64,000 nucleotides of DNA from Alphaproteobacteria bacterium. GTDB taxonomy: Bacteria > Pseudomonadota > Alphaproteobacteria > SMXP01. Below the pieces are notes generated by a model. That model was not told the DNA's origin. It worked only from the letters and a program-made list of their open reading frames with translations, and did no database searches. Within the stretch, counting starts at the first letter, position 1. Each line of letters starts with the position of its first letter. A program made the position numbers and the translations under genes. Positions 40,491-63,783 of the stretch are shown piece after piece. The stretch spans positions 248,001 through 312,000 of the forward strand of contig JANQPV010000044.1 in the NCBI GenBank assembly GCA_028285305.1, read 5' to 3'.

Positions 40491-40961
40491 ATGACGACAA
40501 AGCCGACTTTCACGATTTCCGAGCTGGCTCAGGAATTTGGCGTTACCACGCGAACGATCCGCTTTTATGAGGCCAAAGGGCTCCTCAACCCAGCACGCGA
40601 CGGACGGACCCGACGGTTTTCTTCCGGTGATAGGGTTCGTTTATCTCTGATTTTGCGTGGAAAACGTGTTGGGTTTTCGCTCGACGAAATTGGTGAACTG
40701 CTCAATCTCTATAAGCTCGATGATGGGAACGCGACCCAGCTGCGAGTGGCGCTCGACCGCTTTCAAAAGCGAATCGAGGTCCTCCAGCAACAGCGCGAAG
40801 ACATTGATGCGGCGATCGCAGAGCTTGAAGTGGGCTGTGTTCAGGTCCGGGAGATGCTGAACGCTCACCAAGACGAACAGCCACACACGCCGACGGTGGC
40901 GCCGTCTGCAGCCGGGTATGGCGGCCCGCTTTCGACTGCTCGACCTGAAAGCTCAACTTAG
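40491..40961 (+). CDS. liuR: MerR-family regulator, LiuR-like
   Basis: 156 aa. MerR HTH begins F-T-I-S-E-L-A-Q-E-F-G-V-T-T-R-T-I-R-F-Y-E near 7-27, followed by wing F-S-S-G-D-R-V-R-L and I-L-R-G-K-R-V-G-F-S-L-D-E-I. A coiled coil (about 85-125) forms the dimer. This is very close in pattern to LiuR, the regulator of branched-chain amino acid and fatty-acid breakdown in proteobacteria. ATG at 40491 has AGGGG just upstream. It is the first gene of the operon and sits behind its own probable operator. Confidence 0.85.
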   Translation: MTTKPTFTISELAQEFGVTTRTIRFYEAKGLLNPARDGRTRRFSSGDRVRLSLILRGKRVGFSLDEIGELLNLYKLDDGNATQLRVALDRFQKRIEVLQQQREDIDAAIAELEVGCVQVREMLNAHQDEQPHTPTVAPSAAGYGGPLSTARPESST

Positions 40962-52667: not shown

Positions 52668-52708
52668 ATCAAATTTTTATGCATATTATGTTTTATATCT
52701 ATTTGAGT

Positions 52709-52714
52709 TATAAT
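52709..52714 (+). promoter_or_regulatory. TATAAT -10 box in the LysR-lactonase gap
   Basis: TATAAT at 52709-52714 on the plus strand, 44 nt before the lactonase-like ATG. No clear -35 (TTATGT, 52686-52691, has the right spacing), which would suit activator dependence. Confidence 0.5.
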
Positions 52715-52758
52715 AAGCCATTGCTTAGCCTTCGTCCATATCGACGAAAGGACCGACC

Positions 52759-53727
52759 ATGGAACATCCTCACCGAAGTCTTATTGTTTGCCTCCTGATT
52801 ATACTTATGTCGGTTCGCCACGGAGCCGCCATGGGTCCTTTTGAAGAGAAAGACTGGTCGGTCGATGGGGAGCACGAAAAGTATGGGGATTGGGCCGATG
52901 TTTTTGAGAGGGCGCCGCGCGTTGCACTTCACAAGGTTCTGACCGGGTATGTGCTCGCCGGACCGGATATCTTGATTAACCCCAAAGATCCACGAACGCC
53001 CGATGCCTACCAACAAAAGATCTGGGTGCCGTCCCCAGCTTATATCATCGAGCATCCAAAGTTCGGGGCTTTTGCCTTGGATGCGGGACTGCGTGCGGGA
53101 CAATGCGATTACGGTACGCGGCCGTTCTATTGGGTGCCCTGCAAATCCGAGCCGGGTATGGATCTGACGTCTTACGTGAAGTCACATCAGATACAGCTCA
53201 ATGGCGTCATCATCTCTCACTTTCACGGCGATCACGTGAGCGGGCTAAGTGACCTGCTCGGCTACAAAAGGATTGATGTGCTCGCGAGCGGGCAAGAAAT
53301 CCGAGCCCTGCGATCGCTGTTGCCTGTTCGTTTCGGATATGAAGCGCACATGTTCGACCGCCCGATGACGTTGAGGCGCATCGACTCTGCTTTCGAAGAC
53401 ATGCCGATCCTCGGGCAATTGGCGAACCTTTTCGGCGATGGTTCCGTGTGGCTAATTCCCACGCCTGGGCATACGAATGGACATTTATCGGTTCTGATAG
53501 TTACGGCAAAAGGTCCGGTCTTACTTACGTTTGATGTGAGTCATTTAAAAGCGGGGTTTGAACACGGCATTCGGCCGGGGTTTGTGACGCGTAAAGAGCA
53601 AGCTGACAACAGCCTAAATAAACTCCGCCAGCTGACGGGGTTCTATCCCGAAATCCAAATTATATTTGGGCACGAACCGAGCCAATGGGAGGCACTTGAT
53701 GACGAACAGGAGGTCTCTCATCCGTAA
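52759..53727 (+). CDS. Exported MBL-fold metallohydrolase, AHL-lactonase-like
   Basis: 322 aa. Signal peptide (residues 1-25, H-R-S-L-I-V-C-L-L-I-I-L) indicates periplasmic location. Zinc motif S-H-F-H-G-D-H-V-S-G near 153-162 (H-x-H-x-D-H), then T-P-G-H-T-N-G-H near 234-241, F-D-V-S-H near 258-262, and the late I-F-G-H-E-P-S-Q-W, close to the F-G-H-D-x-E-Q of AHL lactonases. AAAGGA precedes the ATG. Next to LuxR and LuxI genes, so signal destruction is the likely role; other lactones are possible substrates. Confidence 0.78.
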   Translation: MEHPHRSLIVCLLIILMSVRHGAAMGPFEEKDWSVDGEHEKYGDWADVFERAPRVALHKVLTGYVLAGPDILINPKDPRTPDAYQQKIWVPSPAYIIEHPKFGAFALDAGLRAGQCDYGTRPFYWVPCKSEPGMDLTSYVKSHQIQLNGVIISHFHGDHVSGLSDLLGYKRIDVLASGQEIRALRSLLPVRFGYEAHMFDRPMTLRRIDSAFEDMPILGQLANLFGDGSVWLIPTPGHTNGHLSVLIVTAKGPVLLTFDVSHLKAGFEHGIRPGFVTRKEQADNSLNKLRQLTGFYPEIQIIFGHEPSQWEALDDEQEVSHP

Positions 53728-53749
53728 GCTTGTCATGGGTTGTGTGTTT

Positions 53750-53780
53750 CAGTTGCAAAACACCTTAGGTTTTGCAACTG
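53750..53780. promoter_or_regulatory. 12-7-12 perfect inverted repeat upstream of luxR
   Basis: CAGTTGCAAAAC (53750-53761) and GTTTTGCAACTG (53769-53780) are exact reverse complements around ACCTTAG. It starts 22 nt after the lactonase stop and ends about 190 nt before luxR. No T run follows, so it is not a standard terminator. Longer than a usual lux box (18-20 bp); it may bind LuxR or another regulator, or fold as an mRNA hairpin. Confidence 0.62.
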
Positions 53781-53816
53781 CGATAGGAATAAATTCCGGA
53801 TAGACTGTTTTTGCAC

Positions 53817-53835
53817 GTTCGTAATTGGTACGAGC
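53817..53835. promoter_or_regulatory. Inverted repeat GTTCGTA-N5-TACGAGC upstream of luxR
   Basis: Seven-base arms with one mismatch around ATTGG, 137 nt before the LuxR start. About the size of a lux box and in the right place to control luxR, but it lacks the usual CTG-CAG ends. Confidence 0.4.
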
Positions 53836-53972
53836 CGAGGATAAAGATGCAACGGTCGCAGATTCATCACCTCAAGTTCAGCTCTCTCGTCCTTTTTGCT
53901 TTGCGTAAGCTAGGTAATCCAGTTAGATTCTCGCTGTAGTGAGTAATTGGGGCGTTGGCTTTTGGAGTGGAT

Positions 53973-54695
53973 ATGAATCTAGCTACCTCTGTTCTTGATA
54001 TTGCTTCGGAGATCGAGAGAACAAAAAACAAAGCTGATCTGGCTCGATTTTTGGAAAAGACGCTCAGCCAATTTGGAGTTGAACGATTGGGCGTAATCGA
54101 ACTTGTTGGGTCAAAGAATCGACTGCCGATCAATTGGACGCCTGGATTTGAAGATTGGAACAGCCACTACTTTGGGAAGAATTATAGATTTCACGATCCT
54201 ATTGTTAGATCATTGTTGGACTACGGAACAACTCCAAAATTCTGGTCCGATATCGAGCAGACGCTTAAGTCAGGGTCGCAAGCCTGGAGAGTAATGAACG
54301 AAGGGCGAGAGTTTGGATTCGGTATGGGCGTCACTTTCCCAATCCCCGGCTCTGATGGCTACCTTGCCGCAATCACCGCAATCGGACCGGTGGTTGCGAA
54401 AGAGAGCGACGACTGTAAGGCTCTCGACGTTATTTCGACTTATATCTATCGACAGTTGCTTGCCTTCGAAAAAACCGAATTGAGCGAGGACAAAGTCGTC
54501 CAGCTCACCAGAAGGGAAAAAGAGTGCGTTCACTGGCTGGCGGAGGGCAAGACCTATTGGGATATCGGCGAGATTCTTTCGGTTTCGCAAAATACCGTTC
54601 GACGGCACTGTGAAAATGTCAAAGAAAAGTATGGGGTGAGTTCGCGCACACAAACGGTCGTTGAGGCCATTCGAAGAGGCGATCTCTTGCCATAA
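53973..54695 (+). CDS. luxR: LuxR-type autoinducer-binding transcriptional regulator
   Basis: 240 aa. The signal-binding domain shows the invariant residues of AHL-binding LuxR proteins: W62, Y66, D75-P76 (H-D-P-I-V) and W91 (F-W-S-D). The C-terminal GerE HTH reads L-T-R-R-E-K-E-C-V-H-W-L-A-E-G-K near 181-196 and V-S-Q-N-T-V-R-R-H near 206-214. ATG at 53973 has GGAG 5 nt upstream; the TTG at 53955 is less likely. Located 90 nt before luxI on the same strand. Hand count: 24 and 29 G+C in the 60-base lines at 54001 and 54121, low for this window. Confidence 0.93.
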   Translation: MNLATSVLDIASEIERTKNKADLARFLEKTLSQFGVERLGVIELVGSKNRLPINWTPGFEDWNSHYFGKNYRFHDPIVRSLLDYGTTPKFWSDIEQTLKSGSQAWRVMNEGREFGFGMGVTFPIPGSDGYLAAITAIGPVVAKESDDCKALDVISTYIYRQLLAFEKTELSEDKVVQLTRREKECVHWLAEGKTYWDIGEILSVSQNTVRRHCENVKEKYGVSSRTQTVVEAIRRGDLLP

Positions 54696-54785
54696 AGAGA
54701 GTTTAGTCAATACTCAGATTCGACCATAGAGGCGTCTCGCCTTTAATGTTCAGCTCAAACTTCTTTTTGGGTAAAGGAGTTTGCA

Positions 54786-55460
54786 ATGCTGAACGTCATA
54801 ACCAAATTCAATTCGCACCTATACCAAAGTGAGCTTGATCAGATGTTCGAGCTTCGGCACAGAGTTTTGATTCAGGACCTCGCCTGGGAGCAACTCGGCG
54901 GCGAAAATGGTCATGAACAGGATCAATTTGATACAGAGCAGGCAATCTACGTCGTTGCAAAGCAGGACGACAATCAAAGGGTGGTCGCTTGCGCCCGCCT
55001 TCATCACTCGCTTCTACCTAACTTATCCTCGGAAGTCTTTGCTCCTCTGTTTGGACCGGCGGGCGTTTTAGCTGGAATGAACGTCTATGATGGAACAAGA
55101 CTGGTTGTGGACAAGGAGAGTGCTGATCCTCGGCTCTATCGAAATCGAATAATTGTTGGTGTGGGTCAGATTGGCGAAAAGCTCGGCGCGACCGATCTTA
55201 CCGGCGTGGCGTACTATGACCAGTTTCAGCGATATTTGTTGGGTGGAACGCCGGTACGCCCGTTAGGCTTGCCGGAATCCGATGGGCAAAGACGTTTAAT
55301 TGCATTTGCTAGGGATTTGAGGCCGGCTGCAAATCAAAAACTCCAAGAGGCACTGTCATATTTCCCGGACACTTTGTTTGATGACGAAGATGCCGACTGC
55401 CTTGTTCAGACGAAAAGGTACTTACTCAGTCTTATTCCTCAGAACGCGACAGCGGCCTAA
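54786..55460 (+). CDS. luxI: LuxI-type acyl-homoserine-lactone synthase
   Basis: 224 aa. Conserved LuxI positions: R24 and F/L in E-L-R-H-R-V-L, W34, D46 and D49 in E-Q-D-Q-F-D, and R71 in A-C-A-R-L. The usual E-x-x-R of the active-site strand is D102-G-T-R105 here, a conservative but uncommon change. AAAGGAG precedes the ATG. Makes an N-acyl-homoserine lactone from SAM and acyl-ACP (or acyl-CoA); the acyl chain cannot be told. No classical lux box was seen in the 90 nt ahead of it, only AGGCG-TCT-CGCCT at 54730-54742. Confidence 0.92.
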   Translation: MLNVITKFNSHLYQSELDQMFELRHRVLIQDLAWEQLGGENGHEQDQFDTEQAIYVVAKQDDNQRVVACARLHHSLLPNLSSEVFAPLFGPAGVLAGMNVYDGTRLVVDKESADPRLYRNRIIVGVGQIGEKLGATDLTGVAYYDQFQRYLLGGTPVRPLGLPESDGQRRLIAFARDLRPAANQKLQEALSYFPDTLFDDEDADCLVQTKRYLLSLIPQNATAA

Positions 55461-55555: not shown

Positions 55556-56167
55556 TCAAACCAACCCCGCATAAGGCGGTGCGGGATCGTATTCCATGTA
55601 GCGCTGAACCGTTCGGGCGTGCTCGGGCGAATACATCTGGCCGATCAGCCAAAGCGCCATATCGATCCCCGCCGAAACGCCGGCCGCCGTTACGACGTTT
55701 CCGTCGCGTACATATCGGGCATTGTCGATGACTTCGCTGGCTTCGTTCCGCTCTCTGAGGGTTTTGACGAAATTCCAATGGGTGGTCACGCGTTTGCCTT
55801 TCGCAGGACCGGCCGATGTCAGGATCAAAGATCCGGTGCAGACGCTGGTAACCCACCGACACGTCTCTGCTGTGTCTCTGACCCATTTCAGGAGGTCCTG
55901 GTTGGTCACTTCTTTCCTTGTACCTTGACCGCCTGGAACAAGCATGACGTCAAGAGCCGGGGCATCCGCGAATGCGTGATCTGTTTCAACGCGCATGCCC
56001 TTGGCACACTGCACGGTCTTTCCCAATTGGGATACAAGAACGCACGTGTGTGCTGACTGTTCCTGGCTTTCGAGCACCATCCTCGAGACGGTGAACACCT
56101 CCCATGGGCCCACGAAATCCAATTCTTCAGCGCCGCCGAAGAGAAGTAAGCCGATTGTCTGTGGCAT
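55556..56167 (-). CDS. DJ-1/PfpI family protein, isonitrile-hydratase-like
   Basis: 203 aa class-I glutamine amidotransferase-like fold. Nucleophile C110 in S-V-C-T-G-S-L-I-L-T, with V-P-G-G-Q-G-T near 77-83 and T-T-H-W-N-F near 128-133. The pattern is that of isonitrile hydratase (InhA) and related lyases. It lies 10 nt after a GlxA-type AraC regulator whose sensory half is homologous, so the pair looks like a duplicated enzyme and its sensor. Substrate unverified. Confidence 0.85.
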   Translation of the reverse strand: MPQTIGLLLFGGAEELDFVGPWEVFTVSRMVLESQEQSAHTCVLVSQLGKTVQCAKGMRVETDHAFADAPALDVMLVPGGQGTRKEVTNQDLLKWVRDTAETCRWVTSVCTGSLILTSAGPAKGKRVTTHWNFVKTLRERNEASEVIDNARYVRDGNVVTAAGVSAGIDMALWLIGQMYSPEHARTVQRYMEYDPAPPYAGLV

Positions 56168-56177
56168 GTGTCATTTC

Positions 56178-57227
56178 CTATACTGGGATCGCTGTCGAGA
56201 GCGTCGATTGGGTGGGTGGAACATAGAAGCGATTGCGATAGTCAGCCGGAGAGACGCCGAGATGCCGTTGAAAGGCGCGGCGCATGCGTTCTGCATTTCC
56301 AAAACCCGTTGAATGGGCGACGCAGTCCACGGGCGCGCCTTCCCGTTCCAAGCGGCGTCGGGCGGCTTCAATCCGTGCGGATTCAACGAAGCGGGCAGGG
56401 GTCGTGCCCGTAGCGGCCTTGAACTTGCGCAAGAAGGATCGTTCCGACATACAGGCACGGTCTGCAAGAACGGGAACCGTGATTGGCTGGCCAACGTTCT
56501 CCAATATCCACTCCAAGACGTCAGCCATCGGACTATCGGTTGTTCCTTGCGCTATAAGGTGGGCGCTATACTGGGATTGACCTCCCGGACGGATCATGTA
56601 CATCACGCGAGACCGCGCCACGGCCAACGCCACTTCGTGGCCCCAGTCTTCTTCGATGAGTGCGAGAGCGAGGTCCATGCCGGATGTCACTCCGGCCGAT
56701 GTCCATACATGCCCGTCCCTCACATAAATCGCGTCCGGGTCAACATGGGTTGTGGGATAATGACTCGCGAGCTGTTCGCACAAGCGCCAATGTGTGGTTG
56801 CGCGCCGTCCGTCCAAAAGGCCGAGGCGGGCGAGAACAAAGGCGCCACTGCAGATGGAGATTGCACGCTGAGCTGTCTTCGAGACATCCCGGACAAATGC
56901 TGTCAATTCTTCGTCTCGCACCGCACTTGATGTTCCCGGTCCTCCGCACACCATGATTGTGTCGATCGATTTGCGGTCCTGTTTGGAAAAGTCTTTGAAC
57001 GACTGATCTGTATGAAGATAGATGCCACAACTCGTTGAGATCTTGCCGGCCCGTTTGGCCACCAGCGAGATTTCGTAAGCTGGCGTGTCGCCCGTTAGAA
57101 AGTCGCTTGCGCCGGCAAGGACTTCGAGAGGTCCCGTAATATCAAGTATCTGTGCGTCGTCATGGGCCACCATGACCACACGGTGAGGTTCTTTGGGCGC
57201 CTGCCCCAGTGGAGCGATATCAAACAT
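56178..57227 (-). CDS. GlxA-type AraC regulator with DJ-1-like sensor domain
   Basis: 349 aa. N-terminal amidotransferase-like domain (residues 15-200) still has the nucleophile position C126 in S-I-C-S-G-A-F-V-L-A and A-T-T-H-W-R. C-terminal AraC domain (about 235-335) shows two HTH units: V-P-V-L-A-D-R-A-C-M-S-E-R-S-F-L-R-K-F and V-A-H-S-T-G-F-G-N-A-E-R-M-R-R-A-F. Controls the downstream enzyme gene by position. ATG 57227 chosen. Confidence 0.9.
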   Translation of the reverse strand: MFDIAPLGQAPKEPHRVVMVAHDDAQILDITGPLEVLAGASDFLTGDTPAYEISLVAKRAGKISTSCGIYLHTDQSFKDFSKQDRKSIDTIMVCGGPGTSSAVRDEELTAFVRDVSKTAQRAISICSGAFVLARLGLLDGRRATTHWRLCEQLASHYPTTHVDPDAIYVRDGHVWTSAGVTSGMDLALALIEEDWGHEVALAVARSRVMYMIRPGGQSQYSAHLIAQGTTDSPMADVLEWILENVGQPITVPVLADRACMSERSFLRKFKAATGTTPARFVESARIEAARRRLEREGAPVDCVAHSTGFGNAERMRRAFQRHLGVSPADYRNRFYVPPTQSTLSTAIPV

Positions 57228-62238: not shown

Positions 62239-63783
62239 ATGTTAGATCGCCGTGAGTTGATGCAATTGGCCGCCGCCGGAACAGCGAGCACCGTCGCTGC
62301 CGGAATGGGGATGACCGTCGCTTTGGCACCGAGCAGCGCCAGGGCTGGAACACCTCTTTCTTCGAGCAAACAATGGATAGAGGCTTTAGGCCGGTCCTTG
62401 AGCACAGAGCATGATTATTCCCCTCGCGTTGAGGGCAAAATACCGGCCGACCTGTCGGGGGCGCTCTACCGGAACGGACCCGGCCTTTTTGAAAGGGGAG
62501 GCCATCGCAAGGCGCACGTGCTCGATGGGGATGGTATGATCCGCGCGCTCGATCTTCGCGGCGGCACCGCGCGATTTCGCAATCGCTTTGTGCGGACGGA
62601 AAAGTATCTGGAGGAAGAAGCCGACGGATCGCTGAAGTATAGCACATGGACCACACGGTCGCCTGGTGGTGCACTTTCAAATCTGGGCGGTGGCGCCATT
62701 AAGAGCCAAGCGGGGGTGACGGTCTATTCGGTCGGGAAAGATCTGGTGGCTTTGGATGAGGTGGGAAGTGTCTATACTCTTGATCCTCAATCCCTCGAGA
62801 CGACCGGCATGCTTCCCATAGACCCACAGAATCCTCCAGGTGCCTTAAAGGCGCATACGAAATTTGATCCGCAAACGGGCGAATGGCTATTGATGGGTCA
62901 AACGGTTGGACGCAAGTTCAAGTTTGAGTTTATGTCCGTCAGCAAAAGGGGCCAACTAAGGTATCACAAGATTATCGAGTCGCCTGCCAATTACTACATT
63001 CATGACTTTGCTATTTCTGAGTCTTATTTCGTGGTCGTGTTGAATCCGGCGGAGTTTTCCCCGTTTGGCTTTTTAGCGGGTATGCGGAGTTTTACTGATA
63101 GTCTGACCTGGCGTCCCGACCAGCCGAACATTGTCTTGCTTGTGCCGCGGGATGCTTCTACTCCCGCCCGGCGTTATGAGGCGCCGGCCGCATTCATGTG
63201 GCATGCTCTTAATGCTTATGAAGCGGGAGACGAAGTCGTTCTCGAGTTTGTGGGGTATGACGAGCCTGATCACTTCATAGGCGATAACCCTCTGTTCAAA
63301 TCGGTTATGATCGGCGAGGAGGGCAATTCCAAATATCCCGGTACCGCTCGGCGGTATCGCATGAATACAAAATCTTTCGACTTGACCGAAGACATCCTGA
63401 GCGACGCCCATCACGAGTTCCCTATGACGTCTACGGATGTGGTGGCTCAACGGCACCGGTTCGGGTATTTCGCTGCCGGTGCGCCGAGCCATTTCTTTGG
63501 ATTGTCACAACTGGTCCGTATGGATATGGAAACCGGTATGCGTGATACCTATGATCATGGGCCGAATGTCTATGTGGGTGAGCCTGTGCACGTACCGGCT
63601 GCCGGGCGCGCCGGTTGGATCCTCCAAGAAGGGCAAGACGGAAACACGGGCAATGGATTTTATGCGATCTTTGCCGCCGATCAGATCTCTGGCGGACCGG
63701 TCGCCCGGATTTTGCTCGACCATCATCTGCCGATTAGCTTCCACGGCCATTGGCGCGCAGACGGGCATGCTGCGGCTGGCTAA
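62239..63783 (+). CDS. Carotenoid oxygenase (RPE65/CCD family) with Tat-type signal
   Basis: 514 aa. The start L-D-R-R-E-L-M-Q-L-A-A followed by a hydrophobic stretch to A-R-A-G near 37 is a twin-arginine-like signal, which suggests export of the folded iron enzyme. The four iron histidines of the family are readable: H206 (K-A-H-T-K-F-D), H255 (Y-I-H-D-F-A), H322 (M-W-H-A-L-N-A) and H502 (F-H-G-H-W). Substrates could be carotenoids, stilbenes or lignin-like dimers. GAGGAGG precedes the ATG. Confidence 0.93.
   Translation: MLDRRELMQLAAAGTASTVAAGMGMTVALAPSSARAGTPLSSSKQWIEALGRSLSTEHDYSPRVEGKIPADLSGALYRNGPGLFERGGHRKAHVLDGDGMIRALDLRGGTARFRNRFVRTEKYLEEEADGSLKYSTWTTRSPGGALSNLGGGAIKSQAGVTVYSVGKDLVALDEVGSVYTLDPQSLETTGMLPIDPQNPPGALKAHTKFDPQTGEWLLMGQTVGRKFKFEFMSVSKRGQLRYHKIIESPANYYIHDFAISESYFVVVLNPAEFSPFGFLAGMRSFTDSLTWRPDQPNIVLLVPRDASTPARRYEAPAAFMWHALNAYEAGDEVVLEFVGYDEPDHFIGDNPLFKSVMIGEEGNSKYPGTARRYRMNTKSFDLTEDILSDAHHEFPMTSTDVVAQRHRFGYFAAGAPSHFFGLSQLVRMDMETGMRDTYDHGPNVYVGEPVHVPAAGRAGWILQEGQDGNTGNGFYAIFAADQISGGPVARILLDHHLPISFHGHWRADGHAAAG

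Follow-up and report, generated by a model that had tools for sequence, protein, structure and literature searches.

Organization of the locus

The window, that is the whole stretch of 64,000 nucleotides analysed here, carries a LysR-family regulator gene, a gene for an MBL-fold hydrolase with predicted export signals and a luxR-luxI pair (Table 1). A preliminary description of this DNA had named these four genes, giving the MBL product as an exported enzyme with an HFHGDH motif and an FGHEPSQW end, and all of them were confirmed by their open reading frames and Pfam matches. It had also placed the MBL gene divergent from the LysR gene, which is indeed the case, with 91 bp between the two; the MBL gene, luxR and luxI share one orientation (+) and the LysR gene has the opposite one (-).

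Table 1. Coordinates of the genes and intergenic features around the MBL gene.
Feature	Positions	Strand	Match or location
LysR-family regulator, 310 aa	51735-52667	-	Pfam HTH_1 (7e-12) and LysR_substrate
Divergent intergenic region, 91 bp	52668-52758		Between the LysR and MBL genes
MBL-fold lactonase-like hydrolase, predicted to be exported, 322 aa	52759-53727	+	Pfam Lactamase_B (E=7e-9)
Perfect 12-bp inverted repeat, 7-nt loop	53750-53780		Between the MBL gene and luxR
LuxR-family autoinducer-binding regulator	53955-54695	+	Pfam Autoind_bind (3e-17) and GerE (1e-15)
LuxI-family AHL synthase, 224 aa	54786-55460	+	Pfam Autoind_synth (3e-17)

The interval originally put forward, 52759 to 55460, does comprise the MBL gene, luxR and luxI, but the LysR gene that was discussed together with them falls outside it. 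LuxR and LuxI had moreover been said to follow directly on the MBL gene; the order is right, but "directly" is too strong, because 227 bp carrying an inverted repeat part the MBL gene from luxR. This distance is measured to the TTG start of luxR and becomes 245 bp with the ATG at 53973, which is the likelier start, with GGAG upstream of it (positions 53964 to 53967), and which gives a protein of 240 aa instead of 246 aa. An AAGGAG ribosome-binding site lies 5' of luxI. An operon running from the LysR gene to luxI was rejected, since the LysR gene is divergent and the gap with its hairpin precedes luxR.

The region between the divergent genes contains an imperfect palindrome, TTCGTCCATATCGACGAA (positions 52731 to 52748), just 5' of the MBL start, which we regard as a candidate operator. 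As for the LysR protein itself, its nearest NCBIfam models were BsrA and LeuO, with scores far under the cut-off, and a search of 385 genomes of the class returned no homologue at E<=1e-45. The inverted repeat between the MBL gene and luxR reads CAGTTGCAAAAC-ACCTTAG-GTTTTGCAACTG and is the sole exact copy in the 5.4-Mb genome; the 51 nucleotides around it folded better than all shuffled versions (200/200, z = -3.77). As no T-run lies 3' of the repeat, it may act either as an mRNA stem-loop or as an operator. A lux box common to the three LuxI promoters of the genome and the MBL promoter region was not found, the search returning weak palindromes only, and scans for sigma-70 promoters and terminators gave matches at or below shuffle expectation.

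LuxR could be aligned over its full length with CviR, LasR and TraR, and the W, Y, D, P, W and G positions are kept relative to CviR; its best NCBIfam match was the "regulator near HchA" family, with 82 bits for a cut-off of 216. The LuxI protein retains the core residues R24, W34, E44, D46, D49, R71, F85 and R105 and has the commonest residue at 8 of the 10 positions checked among 61 aligned rows. Two of its substitutions are rare, L28 for Phe (3/61 rows) and D102 for Glu (5/61 rows), the latter being common to all three LuxI proteins of the genome. Its closest solved relatives are a BjaI-type synthase (5w8a) and a 4-coumaroyl-HSL synthase (6wn0); identity to the BjaI/RpaI-type synthases is low, L28 and D102 differ from them, and this relatedness does not suffice for a prediction of the signal. 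Between positions 40918 and 48193 of the window, genes for acyl-CoA dehydrogenases, a thiolase and a fused enoyl-CoA hydratase/3-hydroxyacyl-CoA dehydrogenase form a run, and their products might supply a BjaI/RpaI-like LuxI with unusual acyl-CoAs. Directly downstream of luxI, two adjacent DJ-1/PfpI-domain genes (55556-57227, - strand) are found, the second one fused to an AraC-type HTH, and an RPE65-type carotenoid/stilbene oxygenase gene is present at 62239-63783.

The genome has three LuxI genes, the two further luxRI loci being at C16 (133 kb) and C28 (111 kb). The first of these (L111:6335-9110, about 131-134 kb) consists of tRNA-His, two tandem LuxR genes and LuxI, and its luxR-luxI gap contains a near-perfect palindrome, GTAGCCAATATTGGCGAC, which is a candidate lux box. 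At the second (L112:7604-10079), luxR-luxI is followed immediately by a PhyH-family (phytanoyl-CoA dioxygenase) gene. An MBL gene 5 kb from the luxI of this last locus (L112:1497-2354) was considered as a second instance of the arrangement and discarded, its product belonging to a different family, AidB/YtnP-like and far below the cut-off.

The MBL enzyme and its predicted export

The MBL protein carries the full dinuclear set of metal ligands of the MBL lactonases, H154, H156, D158 and H159 in the HFHGDH motif (residues 154 to 159) together with H238, D259 and H305, and its C-terminal end is FGHEPSQW. It is alignable with AhlX and AiiA and shares about 20-23% identity with enzymes of the AiiA/AttM/AhlX type. 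The HxHxDH, H, D, H ligands, the G-H-[DE]-P-x-x-W end and the fold are what it has in common with AiiA, AttM (BlcC) and AhlX, whereas its predicted export, a conserved cysteine pair, a separate clade and scores under the family cut-offs set it apart from them. A further difference lies in the active site, since these enzymes have a catalytic tyrosine at the position taken here by His262: this residue is Tyr194 in AiiA (Tyr223 in GcL), AttM also has Tyr, and the Tyr is conserved in the AttM-like rows of our alignment. His262 leaves AHL activity possible, because AidC, MomL and LrsL, which carry a histidine at the Tyr194 position, are active AHL lactonases (PMC9441902). It is however no proof of AHL activity and does not discriminate, because a histidine at this position is also present in several unrelated MBL clades; it was ruled out on the same ground as proof of a MomL-type lactonase.

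We then compared the protein with curated families and structures. None of the cut-offs of the curated NCBIfam AHL lactonase equivalogs was reached (70 bits for a cut-off of 390 with AttM, 60 for 375 with AiiA and 26 for 360 with AidB), while a true AttM from our sequence set (L051) passed the AttM cut-off with 398 bits. When a profile of the MBL protein and its three nearest homologues was run against the PDB, AHL lactonases came first (2e-20). The AlphaFold2 model (pTM 0.75, mean pLDDT 74, with values above 85 over most of the core) was also submitted to Foldseek against the PDB, and the best match of this predicted fold was 4-pyridoxolactonase (3e-15), a non-AHL lactonase. This enzyme likewise has a dinuclear site, but it differs by the low score of the MBL protein with the corresponding NCBIfam model (44 bits for a cut-off of 325), and no vitamin B6 genes were seen near the MBL gene. 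The next matches of the model were the AHL lactonases AiiA, AhlX, GcL and AaL (E values of 1e-14 to 1e-12, with AiiA and AhlX at 1e-14), and AiiB was also among them. LrsL (9e-10) and AidC (3e-8) matched the predicted fold more weakly than AiiA did. These two and MomL resemble the MBL protein by the histidine at the Tyr194 position and MomL, in addition, by its signal peptide.

In a tree built without the AiiA, AidC, MomL, LrsL and MPH sequences, the MBL protein grouped with its homologues of the f121 order (support 98/95), and this group joined the G603 and G577 proteins (support 98/96). The 7-row clade of the MBL protein stands apart from the AhlX and AttM-like rows, and no characterised member was present in it among the sequences placed in the tree. 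A typical AttM/AiiA member was thus ruled out by both the NCBIfam cut-offs and the clade position. Because of its metal ligands, its PDB profile matches and the matches of its predicted fold, the assignment of the protein as a putative lactonase-type hydrolase is supported. The more precise reading as an AHL lactonase, proposed at the outset, stands in part: the near folds are mostly AHL lactonases, but the missed cut-offs, the histidine in place of tyrosine and the uncharacterised clade weigh against an AHL substrate. AHLs are the leading and single most likely candidate substrate, and the chances that the enzyme hydrolyses them are about one in two.

A signal peptide is predicted at approximately residues 1 to 24 of the MBL protein, with a 13-residue mean hydropathy of 3.07. 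Its four nearest homologues have the lipobox LAAC, the G577 homologue has LSAC and the G603 homologue has a TM anchor. C116 and C128 are the only cysteines of the mature protein, and neither varies among the nearest homologues, those of the f121 order. This conserved pair fits the disulfide expected of an exported protein. Export of the MBL protein is well supported by these predicted features. Lactonases are mostly reported to be cytoplasmic (PMC11633161), MomL, which has a signal peptide, being an exception (PMC5082319). The protein would belong to a small, exported and uncharacterised subfamily of MBL lactonases, new here, with a histidine active site and a cysteine pair.

Conservation of the gene arrangement

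The LysR, MBL, LuxR and LuxI genes had been presented as one block. Besides the gap before luxR with its unique hairpin, the comparison with other genomes argues against this view. When 60 LuxI genes belonging to other genomes of the class were inspected, none had a lactonase-type MBL gene within about 6 kb (0/60); the sole MBL type around them was of the alkyl-sulfatase type, close to a single LuxI of the f121 order. Conversely, neither luxI nor luxR was present near about 100 other MBL relatives, within the 1.5-6 kb examined around each. The block reading is weakened because the gene order is not kept in other genomes, but it is not fully refuted, because the family is thinly sampled, without close relatives carrying these genes; LuxI and the MBL gene are both absent from the four remaining genomes of this family. 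In three f121 genomes (L210, L211 and L214) an alkyl-sulfatase-type MBL gene lies a few kb from one of the two LuxI loci, its family being confirmed for L210.

The neighbours of the MBL relatives are of other kinds. Genomes of the f121 order have the MBL gene between a thiolase-like gene, which lies 3 bp before its start, and a histidine phosphatase gene; the two LuxI genes sit away from it, on other contigs in the fragmented G385. The G577 relative, which has a lipoprotein signal (L126:6128-10132), is located beside dgoK and a 2-dehydro-3-deoxy-6-phosphogalactonate aldolase gene, divergent from a different LysR gene, and is possibly an envelope sugar-lactonase. One further relative comes after a MerR gene. 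A profile scan of named genomes for the MBL protein gave only distant relatives among the matches listed, and a viral scan gave one partial match; the plasmid DNA search yielded no match and the plasmid tblastn only relatives below 60% identity.

LuxI was present in each of the five genomes that carry the nearest MBL relatives (5/5, two lineages), to be compared with 58 of the 385 genomes of the class sample (15%). Resting on two lineages, this co-occurrence is suggestive, and no LuxI was found in the wider-clade genomes G577 and G603. We also estimated how many MBL genes chance alone would place immediately next to a luxRI pair. With about 25 MBL-fold genes, three luxRI loci and 5.4 Mb, about 0.03 such genes would be expected, and fewer for the lactonase-like subset. 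The adjacency is unusual; alone it is not strong evidence.

Possible roles of the locus

The reading we put first, to which we give an even chance, is that of two neighbouring units, a LysR-controlled exported lactonase and an independent, ordinary LuxR-LuxI pair. LysR would sense a metabolite and control the divergent MBL gene, whose product, an exported two-metal hydrolase, would act in the cell envelope by opening a lactone ring. LuxI would make an acyl-homoserine lactone and LuxR would sense it, as in any ordinary pair. If the AHL, own or incoming, is hydrolysed by the MBL enzyme, less signal would be available at LuxR; with AHLs as the most likely substrate, the enzyme would therefore lower the signal reaching this regulator. 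The Pfam and NCBIfam matches, the metal ligands, the folds, the export signals, the co-occurrence with LuxI and the 91-bp divergence from the LysR gene all speak for the two-unit organization. On the opposite side stand the low AttM and AiiA scores, the separate clade, the nearest homologues located away from luxI, the absence of LuxI from G577 and G603 and a top fold match that is a non-AHL lactonase. Since the explanations considered here overlap, the likelihoods attached to them are not meant to sum to one.

Somewhat less probable, with roughly one chance in three, is an exported lactonase or esterase acting on a nutritional or detoxified compound sensed by LysR (a sugar, aryl or fatty-acid-derived lactone), its position beside luxRI being due to chance. 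The match to 4-pyridoxolactonase points in this direction, as do the surroundings of the relatives, be they catabolic (the thiolase-like gene, or dgoK and the aldolase with a divergent LysR) or a preceding MerR gene, and the lack of luxI and luxR near the approximately 100 relatives; since the genome carries about 25 MBL genes, one of them could be a neighbour by chance. However, most of the other near folds are AHL lactonases, LuxI genes are present in all genomes with the nearest relatives, and a chance adjacency was put at only about 0.03 by our estimate.

Two further explanations keep a quorum-sensing role for the enzyme or a protective one, and we hold both to be unlikely. According to the first, a self-limiting circuit as in the initial proposal, LysR, MBL, LuxR and LuxI would form one regulon in which the lactonase removes the cell's own AHL and LysR times the build-up of the signal. 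The MBL, luxR and luxI genes are adjacent and codirectional, and UilS of Serratia marcescens offers a precedent: the gene of this AHL lactonase is syntenic with luxR, it is controlled by LuxR and AHL, and a feedback of the enzyme on the signal has been proposed (PMC11633161). Such a joint circuit is nevertheless given a low probability because of the 227-bp gap, its unique hairpin, the failure to find one lux-box-like operator at both the MBL promoter region and the luxI promoters, and the absence of the arrangement at the 60 LuxI and about 100 MBL loci. UilS is moreover reported to be cytoplasmic and induced by LuxR and urea (PMC11633161), whereas the MBL protein described here is predicted to be exported and is encoded divergently from LysR. 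According to the second, put no higher than the joint regulon, the exported enzyme would mainly destroy the AHLs of competitors, lactone antibiotics or toxins, and so shield the organism's own signalling or growth; the predicted envelope location fits an action on incoming molecules, and exported lactonases of the MomL type exist (PMC5082319). More doubtful still is a quorum-sensing locus specific to this lineage, where a LysR-gated envelope lactonase would clear the signal of the adjacent LuxI before its re-entry, a metabolite thereby setting the quorum threshold; the lactonase would represent a new exported subfamily with a histidine active site, a likely disulfide and export anchors of several kinds.

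To return to the two-unit organization, UilS already provides an example of a luxR-linked lactonase; what would be new is an exported, His-type, Cys-paired subfamily encoded beside luxRI with a divergent LysR gene. If AHLs are hydrolysed, the enzyme would be both exported, unlike the mostly cytoplasmic lactonases, and in genetic linkage with the organism's own signal synthase, and the locus would provide a test case for a quorum threshold set by signal degradation in the envelope. Altogether, the data point to an uncharacterised subfamily of putatively exported MBL lactonases, which in two lineages is found together with LuxI genes.
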